DNA of 30,726 bases from a virus: the IMG/VR virus record IMGVR_UViG_3300020187_000133, positions 1 through 30,726 of that record; one strand, 5' to 3'. Position 1 is the stretch's first letter; each line of letters opens with the position of its first letter. Made by a program: the position numbers and the translations under genes. The notes below the pieces were generated by a model. That model was not told the origin of the DNA and made no database searches. It saw only the letters and a list, made by a program, of their open reading frames with translations. Positions 2,001 through 19,299 of the stretch are shown piece by piece.

Positions 2001-2029
2001 TGCCTGCCCTTGCGGTGGGCATTTTTTTT
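2001..2029 (+). terminator. Rho-independent terminator after the recombination module
   Basis: TGCCTGCC pairs with GGTGGGCA across a 5-base loop (8 pairs, two of them G-U), followed by a run of eight T at 2022-2029. It lies 32 bases past the RuvC-like stop and separates the early-type module from the next gene. Confidence 0.8.
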
Positions 2030-2038
2030 GGTTAAAAT
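2010..2038 (+). promoter_or_regulatory. Weak candidate promoter upstream of the cysteine-rich gene
   Basis: TTGCGG (2010-2015), a 17-base gap and TAAAAT (2033-2038) give a weak sigma70-like arrangement, partly inside the terminator. It lies 22 bases before the ATG at 2061 and would restart transcription after the terminator. Only the -10 element is a good match. Confidence 0.35.
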
Positions 2039-2060: not shown

Positions 2061-2498
2061 ATGGGCTTACTATCAATCGAGATCACTTCTGAGGAAGATG
2101 ACGCGCCGTTAATTACAAAAGAGCAGAACGCTGAAACGCGCACTTTTGTGATGGAAAAATGGATGTTTGGCCCTGAAAAGACCAAGGCTAACAACTCCGA
2201 GTATTGGCGCGATATATCTGTCTACTGGCGTACTAGCCCAGATCAAGCCAAGCGCAACCTGTGCGCTAATTGCGAATACTTTAACGACAGCCCGGATATG
2301 CTTGCCAAGATGGAGGTTGTCCCTGAAGACAAGTATGACCGTGATGGCGGTGGCCGTGGCTGGTGTTCTAAGTGGGACTTCATTTGCCACAACTTACGCA
2401 CCTGCAAGGCATGGGAAGAAGCCGAGCAGGAAATGGAAGAAGGCTCAGATTACTCTAACGGAGAAGATGATGGGAACTACGAATCAGAAGATGCCTAA
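2061..2498 (+). CDS. Cysteine-rich, possibly metal-binding protein
   Basis: I place the start at ATG 2061 (145 residues) because the longer frame opening at 1983 runs through the terminator. Five cysteines sit in the middle: C68 and C71 in LCANCEYF, C102 in GWCSKW, C109 in FICH and C115 in RTCKAW. The spacing CxxC-x30-C-x6-C-x5-C, together with the aromatic residues, suggests a small zinc or iron-sulfur binding fold. The C-terminus after residue 120 is very acidic and likely disordered. It is the first gene of the packaging-side block. A similar pattern occurs in uncharacterised phage proteins; the function is unknown. Confidence 0.7.
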   Translation: MGLLSIEITSEEDDAPLITKEQNAETRTFVMEKWMFGPEKTKANNSEYWRDISVYWRTSPDQAKRNLCANCEYFNDSPDMLAKMEVVPEDKYDRDGGGRGWCSKWDFICHNLRTCKAWEEAEQEMEEGSDYSNGEDDGNYESEDA

Positions 2499-2609: not shown

Positions 2610-4520
2610 ATGCCCTCCTTGCTTGATGACCCAGAAGCCTACGCATTTGCCGCACAGATAGCGGAAGACCGTAGGCGCAAGCTAACCAACCAACAGGCGC
2701 TAAACGCCATCTTGCAAGGCGTTGGCGATTTGCCATACACTTTACTTGGCGCACCTGTTGAAATTAGCACTGGGTTGTTAAGGGCAGGCGGAATGGCTCA
2801 AGGCGAGCAAGCAGGCGGCATTGATTACTTCAAGAGAAAAGCTACCGAGTTAGGCATTCGACCACCAGACTCTGATAACCCAACGATGCGCGATATGCGT
2901 ATGGGTGCTGAGATTGCTATGGGCGGTGTTGACCCCACAAGAGTCGCAAGGGCTGGCGGCGCTGTCGCTGGTGCTGTGGCGAGAGAGGCAAAACCCATTA
3001 TTGGTGACGCCTTAGAAAATTACATGGCGAAGTCTGGCTTGGCTCCAAGAGTTGCGCCAGAGGGTGGGTTGCTTGGCGGTAAGGCGTTTGATGTGTCAAA
3101 AACAGACGCATCTGATATTTTTGGCGCTGGTGCTGAAAAGGTTATCTACAAAGACCCCAACAGCGGTGGATACATCCAAGTCCTGACCCGACCAAATCAG
3201 CCAGCATCTGTAACTGCTTTGGAAGTTCCAGAGGCTTTCCGTAAACAAGGTATCGGTGGCAGTCTCCAAGAGCAAGCATTAAAAGACTTCCCGAATATGC
3301 AGGGTCAAGTATCATCCAAGTCGGCGGCAAGAAGTGCCTACAAACAAGGACGTAGACCTGTGGGTCAGCCAGACGCAACGTTAGATGACGTTCTAAAGAT
3401 GATTGATGACGATTCCTCTGTGAACCTTGTTTCTCCGACTAGACAACAAGAGATGAGTGGCGCACAAGGTGGGTTGTTAAGTGCAACACCTGTAAACGAT
3501 GTGGCAGACACATTGATTTATCACGGAACATCACCAAGCGCCGCAAAGTCAATTGAGAAAGCTGGCTTTGATGTAGCACAAGCGGCAGACGGGACGATAT
3601 GGTTTACGACTAACCCTGCCATTGGTGAAGTCGCGGCAACGGCTAAAGGCGCTGTTGTAAGTAGAAGTTTAAATGAATCGAATCTAAAACTAGCCACTTG
3701 GGATGATATAGACAAATATTCTGTGGATGAATTGATTAACATGGGTTATGACGGGGTTAAGATGCCGTCTGGAAACGAGACAACGTATCAGATTTTTAAC
3801 CCTGAAAAGTTGACAAAATTAAGCAACAAGCCAGCCGCGCCGCAAGCAGAGGCATTAAAGACTGCTCAAAAAAATGCCGCTTTGCCTGTTGAGAAAGGCG
3901 GTCTTGGTCTACCAAAAGACAATACGCCAATGGACAGAGCTAAGGCGATGGGCGGTAAAGACATGGTTCATTTTTCTAGGTCTGGCGGTGATTACACAGA
4001 GCTTGATTCTGGCAAGTTTGCTGTTGCACCTTTTGATGCTGTTGGGACTCATGTTGGTAGCCCACAAGCGGCAATGGATAGATTTAGGAACACAACCGCG
4101 ACAACAGACCAAATTAAAGGTACTACATACCCAGTCACTATTTTGGGCGACAGACCCTTGATGAACCAAAACGGTATGCCTTGGGGAGAAGACGACTTAA
4201 ATGCTTTTTTACGCAAAGAGGGTGGGCATACGTTGTCAGATGTTAATGGCGCAAAAATGACTTATCAAGATATGAATACGGAGTTGCGAAAAAAATTGTT
4301 TGAAGAACAGGGTTATTCATACATTCCATATTTTAATGAAGTAGAGGGTAAAGGTAGTATTAGCTACATTGTCCCACCAAAAAACATTCGTTCACAGTTT
4401 GCCGCATTTGACCCAATGCGTAAAAATGAATCAAATATCTTGGCTGGCGCTTTGCCGTTTGGCATACTAGGTGCAGACGAAGAAACAAAGAAAGATATGC
4501 AAAGTCTGTTAGGATATTAA
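2610..4520 (+). CDS. Polyvalent-type protein with GNAT-like and ADP-ribosyltransferase-like regions
   Basis: This 636-residue protein looks like a modular polyvalent protein of the kind predicted to be injected with phage DNA. The N-terminal 120 residues are helical, with small-residue runs (AGGAVAGAVAREA). Residues about 185-245 resemble a GNAT acetyltransferase core, with the acetyl-CoA loop R211-K-Q-G-I-G216. Residues about 300-402 resemble an ART-PolyVal ADP-ribosyltransferase: YHGTS (H305), GTIWFTTNP (328-336) and YQIFNPEKL (393-401). Residues 448-604 form a second region with VHFSRSGG, DAVGTHVGSPQAAMDRF and the closing motif NIRSQFAAFDP, also reminiscent of polyvalent ART-like modules. 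It lies just before the terminase. Enzyme activity is inference: the fold calls rest on short motifs, and key residues may be degenerate. Confidence 0.7.
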   Translation: MPSLLDDPEAYAFAAQIAEDRRRKLTNQQALNAILQGVGDLPYTLLGAPVEISTGLLRAGGMAQGEQAGGIDYFKRKATELGIRPPDSDNPTMRDMRMGAEIAMGGVDPTRVARAGGAVAGAVAREAKPIIGDALENYMAKSGLAPRVAPEGGLLGGKAFDVSKTDASDIFGAGAEKVIYKDPNSGGYIQVLTRPNQPASVTALEVPEAFRKQGIGGSLQEQALKDFPNMQGQVSSKSAARSAYKQGRRPVGQPDATLDDVLKMIDDDSSVNLVSPTRQQEMSGAQGGLLSATPVNDVADTLIYHGTSPSAAKSIEKAGFDVAQAADGTIWFTTNPAIGEVAATAKGAVVSRSLNESNLKLATWDDIDKYSVDELINMGYDGVKMPSGNETTYQIFNPEKLTKLSNKPAAPQAEALKTAQKNAALPVEKGGLGLPKDNTPMDRAKAMGGKDMVHFSRSGGDYTELDSGKFAVAPFDAVGTHVGSPQAAMDRFRNTTATTDQIKGTTYPVTILGDRPLMNQNGMPWGEDDLNAFLRKEGGHTLSDVNGAKMTYQDMNTELRKKLFEEQGYSYIPYFNEVEGKGSISYIVPPKNIRSQFAAFDPMRKNESNILAGALPFGILGADEETKKDMQSLLGY

Positions 4521-4561
4521 CAAAACCTATCAACATCACCAACCCAATAGGGAGTGAAACA

Positions 4562-4849
4562 ATGAATAAACAAACCGAAAATAATCGCGGCAGACCTAAA
4601 GGGTCACCAAACAAGTCCACAGCGGCTGTTAGGGACGCGATGGCTCTCTTTGCAGAGGGTAACGTACATAAGCTAGAGGAATGGATTGCGGACGTTGCAG
4701 AGGGCGCTGATGGCAGGCAAGCCGATCCAGCAAAGGCGGCTGACTTATTCCTAAAGGCCATCGAGTACCACATTCCCAAGTTAGCCCGCACCGAGGTTAC
4801 TGGCGAGAACAACGGCCCAGTGGAGATGAAGATTACATGGATGAAGTAA
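4562..4849 (+). CDS. terS: Terminase small subunit (putative)
   Basis: This 95-residue protein directly precedes and overlaps the large terminase (13 bases). It begins with a basic stretch, RGRPKGSPNKST (residues 9-20), followed by helices and the ending AIEYHIPKLARTEV, a pattern common in small terminase subunits of short-tailed phages. It would recognise the packaging site on the concatemer and guide the large subunit. A GGGAG ribosome site precedes the ATG. At 95 residues it is near the low end for the family. Position plus the RGRPKG and PKLARTE patterns make the call. Confidence 0.75.
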   Translation: MNKQTENNRGRPKGSPNKSTAAVRDAMALFAEGNVHKLEEWIADVAEGADGRQADPAKAADLFLKAIEYHIPKLARTEVTGENNGPVEMKITWMK

Positions 4850-6099
4850 TCGAAATCCAGTACGCTCCAAGGGAGCAACAGCAGCAGATTCACGACCTAA
4901 TGGACAGCAAGCGTTTTGCTGTGGTGGTCGCTCACCGCAGGATGGGCAAGACTGTCTCAGCAATCAACCACCTTATTAGGGACGCTGTACTGAACCACAA
5001 TGAAGCACCCCGGTACGCCTACATTGCTCCAACGTACAGCCAAGCCAAGCGGATTGCTTGGGACTATCTGGTCAAGTATGTAGAACCACTGGGGGCGGTT
5101 GCCAACATTGCTGAATTGCGGGTTGACTTCTGGGGTAGGCGCATCCAGCTATACGGCTCAGACAACCCTGAAAGTCTGCGGGGCCAGTATTTTGATGGCG
5201 TCATCTTGGACGAGATTGGCGACCAGAACCCAAAGATATGGACAGACATCATTAGGCCAGCACTAGCCGACCGTAAGGGCTGGTGTTTGTTTATTGGTAC
5301 GCCCAAGGGTCACAACCACTTCAAGGAACTGCGGGAGAGGGCTACCAAGGACGAGGGTTGGGGCTTGCTGGAGTTCAAAGCCTCTGAGACCAACGTGGTG
5401 GACGCCCAAGAGTTGCAGGCGGCTAGGGTTGAGATGGGCGAGGACAAGTACCGCCAAGAGTTTGAGTGTTCCTTTGATGCCGCCGTGGAGGGTAGCTACT
5501 ATGGCCAGATCATTAATAAGCTGGAAGACGACAATCATATTCAGTCAATCCCGAGAGACGATATATGTCGGACTGTTACGGCTTGGGACTTGGGTATGGG
5601 TGATTCGACTTCCATATGGGTGGCTCAAATCGCTGGCTCGGAGATTCGCCTCATTGATTACTACGAAAACCACGGTGTAGGCTTGGACAACTACGTCAAG
5701 TGGCTACGAGACAACGATCACCACAAGGCAGAGCATATCTTGCCTCACGACGTACAGGTTCGGGAACTAGGGACAGGCAAAAGCCGTTTGGAGGTACTTC
5801 AGGATGCAGGACTTGAGATTAGGGTTGCACCGCGTATGTCAGTCGATGACGGAATCCAAGCCGTGCGCCGATTGCTCCCAAGGTGCTGGTTCAATGTGCC
5901 ACAGGTGCAAATCGGACTCAATTGCCTACGCAACTACCGTAGGGCATACGACGAAAAGCGTAAGATTTTCTTTGAGCGCCCACTACATGACTGGTCAAGC
6001 CACGGCTCTGATGCCTTTCGGTATCTCGCTATTGGCCTAGACGAAACAGCGTCAACGTGGGGTGAATCTATTAACAAACCAGCAAGGTGGGTCGTTTAA
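4837..6099 (+). CDS. terL: Terminase large subunit
   Basis: This 420-residue protein has both motor and nuclease domains. The ATPase has a Walker A-like AHRRMGKT (32-39), Walker B GVILDEIGDQ with D125-E126, and the coupling motif IGTPKG (153-158). The nuclease domain has D251 in AWDLGMGDST, D305 in LPHDVQ and D392 in GSDAFRYLA, the usual acidic triad of the RNase H fold. It drives DNA into the prohead through the portal and cuts the concatemer. Length is normal for compact terminases. It overlaps the small subunit and its stop shares bases with the next start (TAATG). Confidence 0.97.
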   Translation: MDEVIEIQYAPREQQQQIHDLMDSKRFAVVVAHRRMGKTVSAINHLIRDAVLNHNEAPRYAYIAPTYSQAKRIAWDYLVKYVEPLGAVANIAELRVDFWGRRIQLYGSDNPESLRGQYFDGVILDEIGDQNPKIWTDIIRPALADRKGWCLFIGTPKGHNHFKELRERATKDEGWGLLEFKASETNVVDAQELQAARVEMGEDKYRQEFECSFDAAVEGSYYGQIINKLEDDNHIQSIPRDDICRTVTAWDLGMGDSTSIWVAQIAGSEIRLIDYYENHGVGLDNYVKWLRDNDHHKAEHILPHDVQVRELGTGKSRLEVLQDAGLEIRVAPRMSVDDGIQAVRRLLPRCWFNVPQVQIGLNCLRNYRRAYDEKRKIFFERPLHDWSSHGSDAFRYLAIGLDETASTWGESINKPARWVV

Positions 6100-6272
6100 T
6101 GTACTTAATGCCGCAAGGAAATACCGAGGCCAGACTAAGAGAATGTGAGCGACGTTTACACGCTTTGGAAAATATGTTAAATAGCTTACAATTGGACAAC
6201 AAGCCAAAGCGGGGCAGACCGCCAAAGGAACAAGATGGACACGAATCTACTAAAGGCGATTCTCGAATCTGA
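6099..6272 (+). CDS. Small coiled-coil protein with AT-hook-like motif
   Basis: I choose ATG 6099 (57 residues), which overlaps the terminase stop as TAATG and has AAGGTGG upstream; an ATG at 6087 is also possible. Residues 9-32 form a leucine-spaced helix (RLHALENMLNSLQL) and residues 35-43 read KPKRGRPPK, which contains the GRP core of an AT-hook-like DNA-binding motif. The gene overlaps the portal start by 38 bases. Its place between terminase and portal suggests a role around packaging, but that is inference. Confidence 0.6.
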   Translation: MYLMPQGNTEARLRECERRLHALENMLNSLQLDNKPKRGRPPKEQDGHESTKGDSRI

Positions 6273-8346
6273 GATTGATGACGCCATTGGTTTTTTAGAA
6301 ACCGAAACAGTAGCTGACCGCAAATACGCACTTCAGTCATACCTGCGCCAGCCTTATGGCAACGAGGTGGACGGCAAATCAGCAATCGTTACAGGCGAGG
6401 TGGCAGAGGCTATTGACGGCGCATTGCCTGCGTTGGTGCGTATCTTTACAGCATCTGATGAGGTGGCTCAGTTTGACCCCGTATCTCCCGGCGACGAAGC
6501 TGGAGCCAAGCAAGCCACAGACTATTGCAATCACATTCTCCTAAAGGACAACGACGGCGTTATCCTGTTCCACGATTGGTTTAAGGACGCGCTGTTAGAA
6601 AAGAACGGCATTGTCAAGGCTTACTGGGAAGACAAGGAAGACGTTACTAAGGAGACCTATGAGGCTCTAAGCGACGATGAGTTGGCCATGCTGTTGTCCG
6701 ACAAGGACATTGAGGTTGTCGAGCAAGATAGCCAAGAGTTCCCTGTCCTAGACCAAATGGGTATGCCAGCAATTGGCCCAGACGGTATGCCTGCTGTGTA
6801 CGGCATCCACAACATGACAGTCAAGAAGAAGTCTACTTCTGGTCGAGTCAAGATTGAGAACGTCCCGCCAGAAGAATTCATTATCAGCAAGAAAGCCCGC
6901 AAGATGGCTGACGCGCCATTTGTGGCTCACCGTCGGATTATCACTCGCGGCGACTTGATTGCTATGGGCTTTGATAAGGACGTAGTTGAGGGCTTGCCTT
7001 TAGGTGAGACGCTCAGTTATAACCCAGAGCGAGTTATCCGCTACGAGCAGGGTGAGCAGCCTGAAGACAATCAAAGCCTTGACCCTGCAATGCAAGACAT
7101 TGAGGTGTTTGAGTGCTACATCCGCGCTGACATGGATGACGATGGCATTGCTGAGTTGCGCCAAGTCTTTTACGCTGGTAACGAGATTCTGAGCGAGGAA
7201 GAAACGGACTATGTGCCGTTCTACTCCATTTGCCCAATACCAATTCCGCACAAGTTCTTTGGTCAATCATTCGCAGACCGTACAACGGACATCCAGCTAA
7301 TCAAGACGACTATCCTGCGTCAGATGCTGGACAACCTGTATCTGACCAACAACGCCCGTGTGGTGGCTGTTGAGGGGCAGGTTAACCTTGATGACCTGCT
7401 GACATCTACGGCTGGTGGAGTTATTCGTGCGAAGTCACAGGGTGCTGTTACGCAGTTAAACGTGCAGTCTATTGCGGCTCAGTCATTCCCAATGCTGGAA
7501 TACCTAGACCAGACCGCAAGCAAGCGCACAGGCGTTTCTGATGCTTCTCAGGGTCTTGACCCATCTATCCTGCAAAACGTTACGGCAGCAGCAGTTGCGT
7601 CAATGCAGCAGGCTGGGGCTGGCAAGATCGAGATGGTCGCTCGGATATTTGCTGAGACAGGCGTAAAAGACCTGTTTAGGGGCATTATGCACTTGGTCAC
7701 CAAGTACCAGAACAAAGAGCGCATTATCCGATTGCGTGGCGATTACATTGCTGTTGATCCACGTTCTTGGGCGTCTGAGTATGACATCTCTGTTAACGTA
7801 GGCTTAGGCGCTGGAAACCGCCAAGAGCAGATGGCCATGCTTGGCTTGATTGTCCAGAAGCAGGAGCAGTTGCTTGGTGCTTACGGCTTGGGCAACCCAT
7901 ACGTCAGCCCAGCCCAGTACCGCAATACACTGGGTCGCATGGTCGAGGCGGCAGGCTTCAAGGACTCCGCTGAGTTCTACAAGGCCATTCCTCCAGAGTT
8001 GGATCAGCAGTTGCAGAACCCACCTCCACAGCAACAGCAGGTTGACCCGATGGCTCAAGCGGCTATGGCTAAGATGCAGGCTGACATTCAGGCATCACAG
8101 GCCAAGGCACAGGCAGACCTGCAAACCCAGCAGGCCAAAGCACAGGCTGACATCCAACTAGCCCGTGAGAAAGCTGCGGCTGACTTGCAACTACAGCGTG
8201 AGAAGTTTGCCGCTCAGATGGAGTTTGACCGCCAGAAGATGGTGGCTGAGTTGCAGATGAAGCAACAGGAGTTTGAGGTTGAGGCTCAGATCAAGGCTTC
8301 CAAAGTCGCGGCTGGGATTACATCTAACGTAGAGATACCGGGATAA
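6235..8346 (+). CDS. Portal protein
   Basis: This 703-residue protein lies directly after the terminase and has the size and pattern of podovirus portals: an N-terminal region with LRQPYGNEVDGKSAIVTGEV, a central stem and clip region (VNLDDLLTSTAGGVIRAKS), and the block TGVSDASQGLDPSILQN. The last 100 residues, from about residue 597, are a glutamine and alanine rich coiled coil with near repeats of QAKAQAD, probably the crown or barrel helix extending into the capsid. The dodecameric ring is the DNA channel and binds terminase and then the adaptor. An AAGGAAC ribosome site precedes the start, which lies within the preceding gene. Confidence 0.92.
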   Translation: MDTNLLKAILESEIDDAIGFLETETVADRKYALQSYLRQPYGNEVDGKSAIVTGEVAEAIDGALPALVRIFTASDEVAQFDPVSPGDEAGAKQATDYCNHILLKDNDGVILFHDWFKDALLEKNGIVKAYWEDKEDVTKETYEALSDDELAMLLSDKDIEVVEQDSQEFPVLDQMGMPAIGPDGMPAVYGIHNMTVKKKSTSGRVKIENVPPEEFIISKKARKMADAPFVAHRRIITRGDLIAMGFDKDVVEGLPLGETLSYNPERVIRYEQGEQPEDNQSLDPAMQDIEVFECYIRADMDDDGIAELRQVFYAGNEILSEEETDYVPFYSICPIPIPHKFFGQSFADRTTDIQLIKTTILRQMLDNLYLTNNARVVAVEGQVNLDDLLTSTAGGVIRAKSQGAVTQLNVQSIAAQSFPMLEYLDQTASKRTGVSDASQGLDPSILQNVTAAAVASMQQAGAGKIEMVARIFAETGVKDLFRGIMHLVTKYQNKERIIRLRGDYIAVDPRSWASEYDISVNVGLGAGNRQEQMAMLGLIVQKQEQLLGAYGLGNPYVSPAQYRNTLGRMVEAAGFKDSAEFYKAIPPELDQQLQNPPPQQQQVDPMAQAAMAKMQADIQASQAKAQADLQTQQAKAQADIQLAREKAAADLQLQREKFAAQMEFDRQKMVAELQMKQQEFEVEAQIKASKVAAGITSNVEIPG

Positions 8347-8349
8347 AAC

Positions 8350-9789
8350 ATGGCAACAGCACCTACATTTACGCCAGCAGAAGTTGCAATGGGACAAGAG
8401 TTCTTTGCAAGCAACCCAACAGCAAACCAGATTTATGGTCGAGCAAGTGAAATTGGCTTTTCACCAGAACAAGTTGCTGGGTTGTATCAGCAATCAATGG
8501 GTGGCGACTTTACCGGTCTTTTGGGTGGTGTAACTGATTACTTGGGTGGCACTGGTCAAACCCTTGGTGGCGGGTACACAAGTGGTCTGTATGCGCCAGA
8601 GTTGACGCAATTTACGCCAACGCAAATTAGAGACGCGGCTCAAAGCAGGACACCAGAAGGCGGGGATGTGCGTCAGACATTGCTTGATTACGGCACAGGG
8701 GCTGGTTATAACTTTGACCAAATGGATCAGATGCTAGGACTTGCTCCCGGTTCTACGGCGGCTTATAGCGGTAGCCAGTCGGTAGCACCAGTAGCACCAG
8801 TAGGCGTTGACAGCATTGTCAATCAAATTGCAGGCACTTCAGCAGCCCCAGCAACTATCAATGCGCCTCAAGCAATGGGGACGTACGATACAAGCAACTA
8901 CTTTGATCGCTACTTCCCTGTCAGCATAACTGGTGGCGGGACTAACCAGACCACTGGATTGAGTAACGTATCTGGTCAGTCAAGCCTTGCCGACATCTTG
9001 GCTAATATCCAAGGCCAGTACACACCTCAGCAATTTACACAATCTGGTGGTAGCTATGGGGCTGGTCGATTCTTGCCTGCTGACATGGCTCCCGGAATGG
9101 TTAACACCGCTGGCGGCACAGGATTTACTCCTACCGAGGTTTCTAAGGCTACCGAGTACTTTAGTCAGGTTACAGACCCACAGCAGATTTTTGAGCGTGC
9201 TGATGAGATCGGCTTATCTGGTACGCAGTTGGCTGATTTGTTCTCCAAGTCTACAGGTGCAAATTACAACGATGTGTTGCAATCAATCAATAACTGGTCT
9301 GAGGCTACTGGGAATTCTTTAGATGGCGGATACACGCCGGGGTCATCACCTTGGTTTGAGCCAGCGTCTTTTGAGCAATATAGCCAAAGCCTTATTGATG
9401 AATCATTGGATCAAGCTGTTGCAGAAACAATGGGCGTTAGTGGCGGATCATCTGGAGACATTGAAGCTGGCGCTCCTAGTGCATGGTCAGGCATGACAGA
9501 ACAAGAGCGCGGTGCTTGGGTTCAAGCTAATCCCGGCAAATATGTTGCTGGCAAAATGGCGGCAGTAGCACTATTGCCCGGAGGCCAATTGTTAGCAATG
9601 CAACAAGACCCTTACATGGGGATGTCATTGGCTGAGTACGGTGTTGGTAAGGCCGGCAATATTGCGATGGGTGGCTTGTTAGATGAAGGCAAGGGAGCGC
9701 CAGTAGTAACGTCTTCTGGAAACACGGTTAGCGCAATGGAAGCTGCCGTGCAAGCAGCATTGGATCCAGATAATGAATATTCTCCATAA
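8350..9789 (+). CDS. Virion-region protein with duplicated 60-residue module
   Basis: This 479-residue protein has low charge and is rich in Gly, Ser, Thr and Gln. A module appears twice: residues 7-70, beginning FTPAEVAMGQEFF with IYGRASEIGFSPEQVAGLY, and residues 259-325, beginning FTPTEVSKATEYF with IFERADEIGLSGTQLADLF. Each copy is followed by a GGYTxG motif. Helix-rich modules alternate with glycine-rich linkers. It lies 3 bases after the portal and before the scaffold, so it is probably a virion or head-inner protein. I do not recognise the family. A Gly-rich segment near residue 400 (VALLPGGQLLAMQ) might contact membranes. Confidence 0.72.
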   Translation: MATAPTFTPAEVAMGQEFFASNPTANQIYGRASEIGFSPEQVAGLYQQSMGGDFTGLLGGVTDYLGGTGQTLGGGYTSGLYAPELTQFTPTQIRDAAQSRTPEGGDVRQTLLDYGTGAGYNFDQMDQMLGLAPGSTAAYSGSQSVAPVAPVGVDSIVNQIAGTSAAPATINAPQAMGTYDTSNYFDRYFPVSITGGGTNQTTGLSNVSGQSSLADILANIQGQYTPQQFTQSGGSYGAGRFLPADMAPGMVNTAGGTGFTPTEVSKATEYFSQVTDPQQIFERADEIGLSGTQLADLFSKSTGANYNDVLQSINNWSEATGNSLDGGYTPGSSPWFEPASFEQYSQSLIDESLDQAVAETMGVSGGSSGDIEAGAPSAWSGMTEQERGAWVQANPGKYVAGKMAAVALLPGGQLLAMQQDPYMGMSLAEYGVGKAGNIAMGGLLDEGKGAPVVTSSGNTVSAMEAAVQAALDPDNEYSP

Positions 9790-10012
9790 ATCAGAACGCG
9801 CCCAACACCTACTTGAAGACGGGTTTATCACAGAAGTCATTAATGAATTGAAAAATTCAAAGATTAATGACATAATGAACACTAATGAGGGCGATGTAGA
9901 GGCAAGAGAACGTGCTTACACCGTCATCAAGACTCTTGACTTGATCTATGGGCATATTGAAAGCCTAGCGGCTGATACCAAGATTAAGGAAAAGAAGTGG
10001 AAGATTTTGTAG
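9773..10012 (+). CDS. Small helical protein before the scaffold
   Basis: This 79-residue, charged, mostly helical protein starts 17 bases inside the preceding gene. The block ARERAYTVIKTLDLIYGHIE looks like a conserved helix pair. It sits between the portal-side gene and the scaffold, where small head-assembly proteins often occur. No signal peptide or metal motif is visible. No strong ribosome site is seen, so translation probably depends on coupling with the upstream gene. Function unknown. Confidence 0.65.
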   Translation: MNILHKSERAQHLLEDGFITEVINELKNSKINDIMNTNEGDVEARERAYTVIKTLDLIYGHIESLAADTKIKEKKWKIL

Positions 10013-10065
10013 CATTTGGGCTACAACCGTTAGCAGACGGATTCTGTTGATAACTGGACTGACTT

Positions 10066-11046
10066 ATGGATGACACCAACCCTAGCGGGAGTGAACCATT
10101 AAATGTAAATTCTGCGGCATCTGCCTTTCTTGGGCTAATGGGTGACGATAGCGGAGCCGATGAGGGCCAACCTGCTGAAGAACCTGTAGACGAGCAAGAC
10201 GATGTTGTTGAAGCATCTGACGACGATTCCGAGGTGGAATACACCGAAGACTCTGAGGATGATGTGGAAGAAGCTGTTGATGCTGAGCCTGAGACTAAAA
10301 AGTTTAAGGTGAAAGCGGCTGGCGAGGAAATTGAGGTAGAACTTGATGAACTTATTAGCGGCTACCAGCGGAGCAAGGATTACACACAAAAGTCACAAGC
10401 ACTAGCCGATCAGCGAAAAGAAGTGGAAGCACGACAATCGCAGTTGGCAGATGTGCAAAAAGAGCGTGAGGTTTATGCCCAGCGCCTACAAGCAATTGAC
10501 CAGTTCCTTGGTCAGCAAATGGGCGCACAGGAAGACCTCGCAACTCTAAAGGAGATTGACCCAATCGGCTATGCCGTGAAGGTTGCCGAGCGTAGTGAAC
10601 TTGAGAAGCAACGCGCCGTAATTCAATCTGAGCAGCAACGCCTTGCCCAAAAGCAACAAGCGGAGCGCAACGAGCAGTTACAGACGCACTTGCAACGAGA
10701 GTCACAATTGATGTCTCAGGCTATCCCAGAGTTGGCTGGAGAAAAGGGAAATAGCGTTAAAAAGGAAATTATGTCCTACGCTAAGTCACTTGGATTCAGC
10801 GACCAAGAGTTGGGTGCGATTTATGACCACCGCGCGGTGTTAGCTTTGTACAAGGCGATGAAGTACGAGAATCTTCAGAAGTCTAAGCCTGATGCACTAA
10901 AGAAAGTGCAGTCAGCACCTAAGACCATGAAGGCAGGTTCTTCTAACCCTCCTACGAAGTCATCACAAGATAAACAGGTGATGCAGAAGTTGCGTCAAAC
11001 GGGCAAAGTCCGTGATGCAGCAAATGCTTTTGAACGATTCTTGTAA
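10066..11046 (+). CDS. Capsid scaffolding protein
   Basis: The 326-residue protein immediately precedes the major capsid gene. Residues about 25-85 are extremely acidic (runs of D and E), residues 85-110 contain KVKAAGEEIEVELDELISGY, and residues 110-215 form a long glutamine and glutamate rich coiled coil. The C-terminus is basic, with a final ANAFERFL helix, as expected for the capsid-binding end of a scaffold. Scaffolds shape the prohead and leave before or during packaging. No protease motif is seen in it. Composition and position support the call. Confidence 0.88.
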   Translation: MDDTNPSGSEPLNVNSAASAFLGLMGDDSGADEGQPAEEPVDEQDDVVEASDDDSEVEYTEDSEDDVEEAVDAEPETKKFKVKAAGEEIEVELDELISGYQRSKDYTQKSQALADQRKEVEARQSQLADVQKEREVYAQRLQAIDQFLGQQMGAQEDLATLKEIDPIGYAVKVAERSELEKQRAVIQSEQQRLAQKQQAERNEQLQTHLQRESQLMSQAIPELAGEKGNSVKKEIMSYAKSLGFSDQELGAIYDHRAVLALYKAMKYENLQKSKPDALKKVQSAPKTMKAGSSNPPTKSSQDKQVMQKLRQTGKVRDAANAFERFL

Positions 11047-16114: not shown

Positions 16115-17326
16115 ATGGCTGGATTATTAGATTTCGGGTCGAACCCATACGCAGGTCTTTTGTCAGAGGAAGACTTAGCAGGCGCACGTCGCCAAGCAAC
16201 GACTGATGCTTTGTTGAAACTGTCATCGGGATTGTTCCAAGCTGGCGCTCCATCACGCACACCACAGAGTCTTGGCGCGGCATTGGTTGGTGGCTTGCAA
16301 GGCGTTGGCGCTGGTTATCAGGGCACACTACAGCAAGCGGCACAGCAGAAGCTGATGCAACAAAAGTTGCAGGCTGACTTGCAGGCCAAGAAGCGTACAG
16401 CAGAGGCTCAGAACCTAGTTGGTGGCCTTTATCGCCCCGCACAAGCGGCTACGCAAGGCATTATGGATAGCCCTGACGTTGTTGTGCCTCCAAGACCAGC
16501 GACTCCCGGTGGCATTAACCAAGATGTAATGAGCCAGTTGATGGCACTTGGCCCAGAGGGTCAAAAAGCCATTATGGATCGCTTGAAAATGCAGAAGATG
16601 ATGCAGGGTGAAGCGTTTAATTTAAGCCCCGGTGATGTTAGGGCGCGAACCGACATTTTTGGTAACACAACGCCTGTTGCGTCTGGCGCTCCAAAGGTCG
16701 TTGATCCTAAGTTGGCTTCTGATTTTGCGAAAGCTGTTGATTCTCTTGGGTATCAGCGTAAAAATGCAAGCGAATACTCTGAGCAAGAGCGTGCCGCAAT
16801 TAATAAAAAAATGAATGAATTTGCTCAAGCAAATCGTCAAATCATTATGAATGAAGGCCAAAGAGGTTTTCAAAATACATCTGACTTAAAAAAGCAATTT
16901 GCTGGGGAGCCAATTTACAAGGCTTACGAAGACATGAGGATGTCTTACGGTCAAGTTGCATCCGCAATAGATGCTGGCACACCAATCGGAGACGTTGGTG
17001 GCGCGACCAAGATCATGAAGCTACTTGACCCCGGCTCAGTGGTAAGAGAGTCTGAGCTTGGCATGGCAATGGCGGCTGGTGGTCGTATGGATCGACTTAA
17101 AAATTATTTTAAACAGTCTATAGACGGAACAAAGCTTACAGCAACTCAGCGGAAAGATTTTAAGTCTTTAGCTTCTGAACTTTACAACGTTGCGGCCAAT
17201 TTGTATAACTCAAAAAGAACCGAATATTCTAATCTGGCAAAGGCTTTTAACCTTAATCCAAATTTAGCCCTTGGAAATTCAGCCAAAATTCAAGGTGAAA
17301 TTAAGCGAATTGGGTGGGAACAATGA
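16115..17326 (+). CDS. Internal (ejection) virion protein
   Basis: This 403-residue protein begins with a flexible segment and continues with a glutamine-rich coiled coil (LQQAAQQKLMQQKLQADLQ, about residues 70-90). The C-terminal third has the pattern IMKLLDPGSVVRESELGM followed by YNVAANLYNSKRTEYSNLA, frequently found in phage ejection proteins. A GGAG ribosome site lies in the 9-base gap after the previous gene. Its stop overlaps the next start by 4 bases. It probably joins its neighbours in the internal ejection machinery. No lytic-transglycosylase motif is visible. Confidence 0.75.
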   Translation: MAGLLDFGSNPYAGLLSEEDLAGARRQATTDALLKLSSGLFQAGAPSRTPQSLGAALVGGLQGVGAGYQGTLQQAAQQKLMQQKLQADLQAKKRTAEAQNLVGGLYRPAQAATQGIMDSPDVVVPPRPATPGGINQDVMSQLMALGPEGQKAIMDRLKMQKMMQGEAFNLSPGDVRARTDIFGNTTPVASGAPKVVDPKLASDFAKAVDSLGYQRKNASEYSEQERAAINKKMNEFAQANRQIIMNEGQRGFQNTSDLKKQFAGEPIYKAYEDMRMSYGQVASAIDAGTPIGDVGGATKIMKLLDPGSVVRESELGMAMAAGGRMDRLKNYFKQSIDGTKLTATQRKDFKSLASELYNVAANLYNSKRTEYSNLAKAFNLNPNLALGNSAKIQGEIKRIGWEQ

Positions 17327-19299
17327 CCGACATCAAAATAAAATTTGCAGATGGCGAAGAAATTATTTACGAAAACGCTCCTTCATCTGTAACTGCGGAT
17401 GAAGTTATAGCAAGAGCGCAAAATGAGTTCCCAAGCAAACAAATTTCCTCTGTTGAAAAACTTAAAACAACAGAGGCTCCTATTGCGCCAGTAGCTGCTA
17501 AAGACCCTTTGATGGCAAACGGAAGGGTTCCAACCGTAAATGAAATGATTGCGCCTGAGCTTGATAAACTTAGCGGTGGCGAAGTTGTTGCTGGCGATGA
17601 CTTTTTAAGGCAACTAGGTTTGTTTGGTCGTTACGCGGCTGGTGCTGCCACGGCTATACCAGAAATGGTTTCAGACCCGTTTTCCAATATCGTAAATGCA
17701 ATGGCTGGTCGTGAAGTAATGACGCCTATTGCAAAAACAAGACAGCGTGTGTTAGAGGCGATAAACGCTCCTAAGCCACAAACACAACAAGAGCGCGTGA
17801 TTGGCGACATTACTCAAGCTGGCTTGTCGCTTGCTGCTCCTGCTGGTATTGCTCAAAAAGTTGAGGCGGTTCCACAGGCTTTAAAATCATTGTTGCTTGA
17901 GGCTCCTATTGTACAAAGCGCATCAGCCATTGCCGCCCCATCTCTGGCTTCAACAGCTAGAGAGTATGGCGATGTTGGTGAAGCTGGTCAAATCGGTTTA
18001 GGGCTGATTGGCTCAATTGGCGCTGGTGGCGTCACTGGTGGCGCTCCAAAGTTGGCTCAATCTGTATCAAACATTGTCAAACCATTTACAGAAGCTGGCA
18101 GGGAGGTTGTTGCTGGCAATGTGTTGCGTCAACTTTCACGCGACTCAGAGCAAGCGATTGAGTCTGGTTTAGCGTATAAGCCATCAATACCGGGCTATTC
18201 ACCAACTACCGCACAAGCAACACGCGATGTTGGTTTGATTGGGGCAGAGACAACCATTCGCGGCCTTGACCAAACAGGCAAGTTCGGGAAGCAAATTAGC
18301 GATGCAAACAAGGCTCGCATGGTTATCCTTGACCGCATGGCTAAAGACAAAGATGATTTGGTGTCAGCTATTGCTAAAAGAGATCAGGTTTCTGCTCCGC
18401 TGAGAGAGCAAGCATTTGCAAACTCAAAGGTCTCGCCAGAAGTATTCCAAAACGCAATTACGCTTACTGTTAACAAAAAGATTGACAGCATCCTTGCATC
18501 TCCAGCAGGGAAGCGCAGTAGCGTTATGTCTGTAATGAATGATGCAAAATCTGACATTGCACGCGCTGAGTCTCCAGCAGAGTTGTATGAGATACGCAAA
18601 GATTTGAGAATGGCCGCGCAAGGTCTGTTGGATAAAGCGGAAAGGCGAGGCCCAAATGCAGGTGCATACAAAGCCTCAAAAAAGGAACTAGAGCAAGTTA
18701 TTCAATCTGTTGATGATTTACTCGAATCTTCTGCCCCCGGCTATAAAGAATACTTACGCAAGTACGCGCAATCAAGCAGAGGCATTGAACGATTAGAGGC
18801 GGCTCAGGACTTTAGGGGCAAGGTGTTGACAACAACACCAGACCCGTCAAATGTTGGTGAATATTTGATTTCACAGCCAAAGTTCACCACTGCAATCAGA
18901 AACGCACAAAAAGACACCAACCTATCAAAGACACAGCTATCTGTCTTGGAGAAGGTATCCAAGGACTTGGATGATGGTGTTTTGAATCGCGCCGTTAAGG
19001 TTCCCGGCTCAGATACATTCAAAAATTTGAGTACAGCAAACATTATTGGTGGGATAATTGGCAAGCAGATTTATGGCGAGGTTTCACCCGGCTTGTCAAA
19101 ACTTGTTGCCCCAATGAACTGGCTTTACAACGGCACTGATGATGCGATTCGTGAGTTGTTGGTTGACGCAATGTTAGACCCTAAGTTGGCATCAAGGTTG
19201 ATGAGTACTGCCAAGACAACAACGCTTGAGCCTTTGAGTAATGAATTGAAGCGTAAAGCACTTTCACTTGGCTATGGAGCCGCATTTGGTTTGGAGTAA
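17323..19299 (+). CDS. Large internal (ejection) virion protein
   Basis: I choose ATG 17323 (658 residues), which overlaps the preceding stop as ATGA; a start at 17314 adds three residues. The first 40 residues (KIKFADGEEIIYENAPS, ADEVIARAQNEFP) form a small beta-helix motif common at the start of phage injected proteins. The rest is helical with hydrophobic alanine-glycine segments (LGLIGSIGAGGVTGGAPK, around residues 227-245) that could insert in membranes. C-terminal regions have many basic helices. No catalytic motif was seen. It is probably the largest partner of the ejection complex. Confidence 0.74.
   Translation: MTDIKIKFADGEEIIYENAPSSVTADEVIARAQNEFPSKQISSVEKLKTTEAPIAPVAAKDPLMANGRVPTVNEMIAPELDKLSGGEVVAGDDFLRQLGLFGRYAAGAATAIPEMVSDPFSNIVNAMAGREVMTPIAKTRQRVLEAINAPKPQTQQERVIGDITQAGLSLAAPAGIAQKVEAVPQALKSLLLEAPIVQSASAIAAPSLASTAREYGDVGEAGQIGLGLIGSIGAGGVTGGAPKLAQSVSNIVKPFTEAGREVVAGNVLRQLSRDSEQAIESGLAYKPSIPGYSPTTAQATRDVGLIGAETTIRGLDQTGKFGKQISDANKARMVILDRMAKDKDDLVSAIAKRDQVSAPLREQAFANSKVSPEVFQNAITLTVNKKIDSILASPAGKRSSVMSVMNDAKSDIARAESPAELYEIRKDLRMAAQGLLDKAERRGPNAGAYKASKKELEQVIQSVDDLLESSAPGYKEYLRKYAQSSRGIERLEAAQDFRGKVLTTTPDPSNVGEYLISQPKFTTAIRNAQKDTNLSKTQLSVLEKVSKDLDDGVLNRAVKVPGSDTFKNLSTANIIGGIIGKQIYGEVSPGLSKLVAPMNWLYNGTDDAIRELLVDAMLDPKLASRLMSTAKTTTLEPLSNELKRKALSLGYGAAFGLE

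Follow-up and report, generated by a model that had tools for sequence, protein, structure and literature searches.

A phage polyvalent protein with GNAT-like and ADP-ribosyltransferase-like domains encoded in a hypervariable modular slot next to the terminase genes

Why would a phage place a single polypeptide with an acetyltransferase-like (GNAT) region and two ADP-ribosyltransferase (ART)-like regions just ahead of its terminase genes? The question was raised by a 30,726-nucleotide stretch of viral DNA (IMG/VR record IMGVR_UViG_3300020187_000133; here, the window), in which the original prediction described one 636-residue polyvalent protein with a defined series of motifs. The gene, P0001, starts with ATG and runs for 636 codons with zero internal stops, the reverse strand in register has stops throughout, and every motif lies at the predicted residues and in the predicted order: between RKQGIG and IRSQFAAFDP (Table 1) come YHGT (304 to 307), IWFT (330 to 333), TYQIF (inside 389 to 396), and VHFSR (453 to 457). 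All module comparisons with measurable dS gave dN/dS values of 0.06 to 0.16, which indicates purifying selection; two direct comparisons of the first ART-like domain (A1) of the window were saturated. The intact ORF and dN/dS rule out a frameshift or pseudogene, and chance occurrence of the motifs is ruled out by identity to relatives, constraint, and fold.

Table 1. Features of the P0001 locus in the window. L numbers denote loci of relatives.
Feature	Position	Strand	Details
Hairpin and T-run, terminator-like	2001..2030	+	After RusA-type resolvase gene; conserved in L014/L016
Cys-rich upstream neighbor	2061..2498	+	Homologues annotated "high potential iron-sulfur protein"
Polyvalent protein gene P0001, 636 aa	2610..4520	+	ORF call, dN/dS constraint
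N-terminal module, residues 1-148	2610..3053	+	95% identical to L014-L016
Block replaced relative to L014-L016	3054..4526	+	Homology ends at 3053 (codon 148), returns at 4527
GNAT-like module, residues ∼160-277	3087..3440	+	Relatives, model, structure searches, weak Pfam matches
RKQGIG, acetyl-CoA loop of GNAT motif A, residues 211-216	3240..3257	+	Same form in relatives
ART-like domain A1, residues ∼298-408	3501..3833	+	H305, W331, E390; model, relatives
Entry linker of C-terminal slot (AQKNAALPVEKGGLGLPKDNTPMDRAKAMG), residues ∼409-451	3834..3962	+	Conserved in slot homologues
ART-like domain A2, residues ∼452-602	3963..4415	+	H454, H481, E579; model, slot homologues
Exit motif IRSQFAAFDP, residues 593-602	4386..4415	+	Nearly invariant in slot homologues
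Small terminase subunit (likely)	4562..4849	+	Position; weak family matches only
Terminase large subunit	4837..6099	+	Family match
Portal protein	6235..8346	+	Family match

P0001 gave zero matches above cut-off to Pfam, PHROG, or NCBIfam, which leaves relatives and predicted structures as the basis for the GNAT and ART calls. In PDB sequence searches, the whole protein returned chance matches only (cytochrome b562 and L30e), the A1 profile matched only the W-F repeats of virginiamycin lyases, and the A3 profile had no match. Because one alignment had placed A1 fragments onto A2, the domains were modeled separately with AlphaFold (A9, residues 153 to 411; A8, residues 405 to 636). Model A9 had a pLDDT of 82 and a pTM of 0.46, a low value that is expected if its domains are not fixed relative to each other. 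Its residues 153 to 282 form a compact fold with consistent GNAT matches at Z 6.7 to 8.2 over many rows, among them 6ia6 (Z 8.2, rmsd 3.9, 92 aligned) and RimI 2cnm_A (Z 7.0, rmsd 4.1, 99 aligned); Z-scores of 6 to 8 by themselves are no proof of a fold, and the VIA-align values of 7 to 8 show many unrelated rows agreeing on one fold but do not indicate close kinship. The GNAT region remains below the curated cut-offs (PF14542, 16 bits versus 30; PF13673, 14 versus 23.6), and a search for relatives with the window sequence alone found none; with L024 added, nine were found. RKQGIG fits the Q/R-x-x-G-x-G/A loop, which reads RGQGIG, RGQGVG, or RGQKIG in relatives, and the loop and Y244 are preserved in GNAT relatives. 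A standalone "putative acetyltransferase" (gp49, 9934 to 10398) is encoded between the tail tubular B and internal virion protein B genes of Pelagibacter phage HTVC203P (L124), whose terminase large subunit (TerL) is related.

Residues 298 to 404 modeled as an ART fold, matching Tpt1 (8tfz_A; Z 7.3, rmsd 3.4, 82 aligned) and diphtheria toxin (7k7b_B; Z 7.0, rmsd 3.4, 102 aligned). Model A8 (pLDDT 85, pTM 0.80) had the anti-CRISPR AcrIF11 as its top Foldseek match in the PDB (6kyf; E = 8.4e-4, probability 0.99), the sole match below an E value of 0.001, followed by ART toxins of the RES/ParT type. By VIA, A8 matched residues 1422 to 1599 of a cyanophage A4 pre-ejectosome protein (9k3a_B; Z 7.4, rmsd 4.4, 124 aligned), ParT (6d0h_A; Z 6.1, rmsd 4.2, 125 aligned), and also diphtheria toxin and tankyrases. 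Structure prediction and fold searching, the check proposed with the original prediction, recovered one GNAT fold (∼153 to 282) and two ART folds (∼298 to 404 and ∼448 to 602), in the order predicted.

ART enzymes require a histidine (or arginine) on the first strand, an aromatic or polar second residue, and an acidic third residue. Among 19 A1 sequences, H305 and W331 are kept in all, with W331/F332 at the second ART position, and E390 is acidic in 15; D387 is present in 16 of 19 relatives and is S in the window. Across the C-terminal slot, H454 is retained in 69 of 73 domains, position 481 is H, W, F, or Y in 68 of 73, and position 579 is E or D in 43 of 51 ungapped rows. In the models, E390 and E579 sit in a hairpin ahead of a late strand, where AcrIF11 has D115/E116. 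A1 and A2 retain NAD-site residues under purifying selection. Polyvalent ARTs have an H-Y-D active site (PMC5512222); A1 and A2 share the histidine, carry W/F and H, respectively, at the second position, and have E390 and E579 at the third. The ART-PolyVal model PF18760 matched neither P0001 nor its A2 domain. L107, 57% identical over A1, matches this model exactly at A1 (37.1 bits versus a cut-off of 31.2), and 37 of the 73 slot domains match it at E ≤ 0.05, partly below cut-off; these relatives support the polyvalent character ascribed to P0001.

Given the unusual active sites, neither the ART folds nor the GNAT fold might be catalytic; their role in the virion or ejection channel could instead be one of binding or structure. 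The second position, W/F in A1 and His in A2, departs from the canonical H-Y-E/D set, and the GNAT model is minimal, with much of the helical N-terminal part typical of this fold missing. We consider loss of catalysis improbable: the first histidine has persisted despite a diverging slot core, the second position is nearly always aromatic or His and the third mostly acidic, and AcrIF11 is active with a noncanonical H-F-H-D set (PMC12421852).

BLAST of pieces of P0001 against 100+ loci revealed a mosaic of four modules, every one of which recurs in other architectures, as expected of a polyvalent protein. The N-terminal module, possibly a virion-targeting part, is shared with L014 to L016, whose other ∼350 residues are unrelated to P0001. 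The GNAT module is 64 to 69% identical to its counterparts in L024 and L113 to L121, where different modules come after it; the linker and A2 (residues 409 to 606) are 67 to 83% identical to L001 to L029, where other modules come before them. A1 is 48 to 66% identical to L095 to L111, within proteins of 216 to 2593 residues. Giant carriers of A1-type ARTs are encoded at L103:3439-11217 (2593 aa) and L107:2472-7022 (1517 aa); in both, the ART adjoins a long phrog_9880 region, and L103 also has LPD22. A further central module (YRGSH...YRAVP...INAGDWVTLTKEYAKDHGE), ART-like by eye, recurs in L113, L114, L115, L118, L119, L004, L011, and L125.

These modules are exchanged between close relatives, something that the original prediction was not in a position to detect. 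Window DNA is 93% identical to L014 up to the end of the N-terminal module, unrelated across the replaced block, and homologous again 7 bp past the stop codon (Table 1). Among pairs of loci with TerL identities of 93 to 99.99%, the polyvalent protein aligned over <70% of the shorter protein in 59% of 92 pairs, and in 70% of 153 pairs with TerL identities of 80 to 93%; the portal and the upstream Cys-rich protein did so in 0% of 28 to 61 pairs per TerL class. L113/L052 and L113/L039 have no detectable shared polyvalent sequence at 95 to 96% TerL identity. At the C terminus, the site of exchange has recognizable borders: pairwise identity averages 70% across 30 residues of the entry linker and 98% for the exit RSxFAAFDP, while the cores between them form at least five groups that BLAST does not connect. 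That the gene is a hypervariable modular slot is the novel part of the finding here. A plus-strand gene at 8350 to 9789, between the portal and scaffold genes and without a family match, is a second variable spot, since its identity to the L014 counterpart is 61%, compared with 92% for the portal.

Wholesale swapping of enzyme parts among near relatives suggests a fast-changing slot for weapons aimed at the host. The same place holds ParB-like and other, unassigned domains in some relatives, as it would if the locus were a general cargo (moron) site, picking up toxin or metabolic domains of unrelated kinds that share no purpose. That explanation strikes us as very improbable, given the conserved linker and exit motif, the repeated recruitment of ART-type cores, the strong constraint, and the constant gene neighborhood.

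The relationship to AcrIF11 extends beyond the A2 fold. Six slot homologues match the AcrIF11 model NF052490 (E = 1.5e-9 to 8e-8), at 33 to 39 bits relative to an equivalog cut-off of 50; a profile built from these six finds 6kyf in the PDB (E = 2.4e-5), and their invariant DE aligns over the catalytic D115/E116 of AcrIF11. The AcrIF11-like cores are C-terminal domains of larger phage proteins in L046, L049, L053, L087, L092, and L093, and they are possible virion-borne anti-CRISPR relatives; the L053 gene lies between those for TerL and portal and that of L049 after an ejection-region gene. The window A2 had no sequence match to NF052490 and is not an AcrIF11 member. AcrIF11 (6kyf, 8dwq), which inhibits CRISPR and ADP-ribosylates Csy1, is the top Foldseek match of the A2 model and is related to the six slot homologues, but it is a small standalone protein and A2 is part of a larger one. 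We tentatively entertain, as an idea we regard as doubtful, that the C-terminal slot is a dedicated exchange site for virion-borne ARTs that disarm host defenses upon entry, that AcrIF11-type enzymes and polyvalent ART cassettes belong to one pool, and that A2 is an antidefense enzyme drawn from it. A literature search pairing both terms found no link between AcrIF11 and polyvalent effectors.

The window carries the late genes of a P22-like podovirus, namely, TerL, portal, scaffold, coat, an ejection-protein match, tail fibers, holin, and endolysin. Among named phages, TerL matches best that of an uncultured Manatee Spring phage (64%), followed by Methylophilales phage Venkman (62%), which makes a betaproteobacterial host a reasonable guess and no more. 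Neither the C-terminal domain nor TerL found a relative among GTDB genome contigs, so no prophage host was identified, and a plasmid search found no match. Venkman and ctXG6705, the nearest named phages by TerL, have no polyvalent gene before the terminase, which marks it as accessory.

Upstream, a hairpin separates the NinB, Ref, and RusA recombination genes from a unit of Cys-rich, polyvalent, small terminase subunit (TerS), and TerL genes and is the likely boundary between the two groups. Overall, scans for terminator patterns found no more than in shuffles, so this call rests on the conservation and position of the hairpin. In ∼40 loci, the Cys-rich gene (CANC...GWC...ICHNLRTC) lies ahead of the polyvalent gene, and its product is possibly a partner of the polyvalent protein. 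In MW202879, as judged by eye, it follows a gene for a protein resembling the product of window 17314 to 19299 and precedes one for a 504-residue protein resembling the L014-type polyvalent protein. We rejected an ORF at 2167 to 2607 as a full-length gene; the 1983 frame is conserved over the overlap in ∼40 loci. Between the Cys-rich and polyvalent genes, a plus-strand ORF at 2491 to 2607 encodes 38 residues of basic character (MPKQGKPAKSLREYGEAMMKVKPREMPKRNMRAKKNKG); tblastn found no match to it at an E value of 0.01 in the loci compared.

P0001 adjoins the TerS, TerL, and portal genes; like other polyvalent proteins, it is encoded near virion genes by a phage with portal-terminase packaging. 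The original prediction placed it before the terminase and outside the ejection cluster, which holds for this window but not for relatives beside tail or ejection-region genes: L063, where the polyvalent gene comes directly after a 17314-type gene; L126; and MW202573, where it lies between the tail adaptor and stabilization protein genes. Other relatives (L053, L081, and L036) lie between TerL and portal. ARTs encoded near terminase and portal genes have been interpreted as head packaged or, alternatively, as shielding packaging components from immunity (PMC9503650). In a rival reading, with which this alternative agrees, the same enzyme domains would be made late and act unpackaged inside the infected cell, for example, on host factors, a competing phage, or packaging components. 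The position of P0001 in the window, before the terminase and away from the ejection genes, fits such a role, as do the relatives between TerL and portal. With the three relatives that adjoin tail or ejection-region genes and the match of the A2 fold to a solved pre-ejectosome protein weighing against it, we judge intracellular action without packaging rather unlikely.

The reading that we favor, and consider probable, is that P0001 is a polyvalent effector with exchanged modules that is packaged and ejected. Judging from its place in the late unit, it would be made late, alongside the packaging and head proteins; the gene positions suggest that it would then enter the capsid and be ejected with the DNA. 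In the first minutes of infection, its GNAT and ART parts may acetylate and ADP-ribosylate host proteins, which could be defense components or core machinery. The speed at which modules turn over, together with the connection to AcrIF11, suggests host-defense targets, and the fast replacement of ART cores may mirror changing host targets, probably defense systems. Packaging and delivery have been proposed previously for the polyvalent class (PMC5512222, PMC9503650).

P0001 is best classed among the polyvalent proteins, as a new member of a group in which GNAT beside ART has already been described (Iyer et al. 2017, PMC5512222), and is not a categorically new system. Like them, it combines at least two domains of unrelated predicted activity, here a GNAT fold and two ART folds, in one polypeptide. 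Unlike the published members, its domains score below the published family models, it has two ARTs of different subfamilies after a compact GNAT, and its group exchanges whole modules between close relatives. With ART-PolyVal PF18760, the kinship runs through L107 and the slot homologues; A1 and A2 differ in lacking a direct match and in having W/F or H, not Y, at the second active-site position. The proposed mode resembles that of T4 Alt, a head-carried ART injected with DNA that modifies host proteins (PMC5512222), with packaging inferred for the window protein; Alt, however, is of a different clade, with an R-S-E active site and no GNAT. In polymorphic toxin systems (PMC3482391), too, recombination exchanges effector cassettes behind conserved parts, but the core of the window slot is flanked by both a conserved linker and an exit motif, its context is a phage rather than a secretion system, and no immunity gene was identified.

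What is novel is an ART slot that has defined bounds and is swapped rapidly, whereas the adjacent terminase and portal genes hardly change. Our analysis ties AcrIF11, a characterized anti-CRISPR enzyme family, to polyvalent effectors. If the favored reading is true, one phage family offers a defined site at which host-directed modules outpace neighboring genes in turnover, and because the slot has recognizable borders, new anti-host or antidefense ARTs could be harvested from it systematically.
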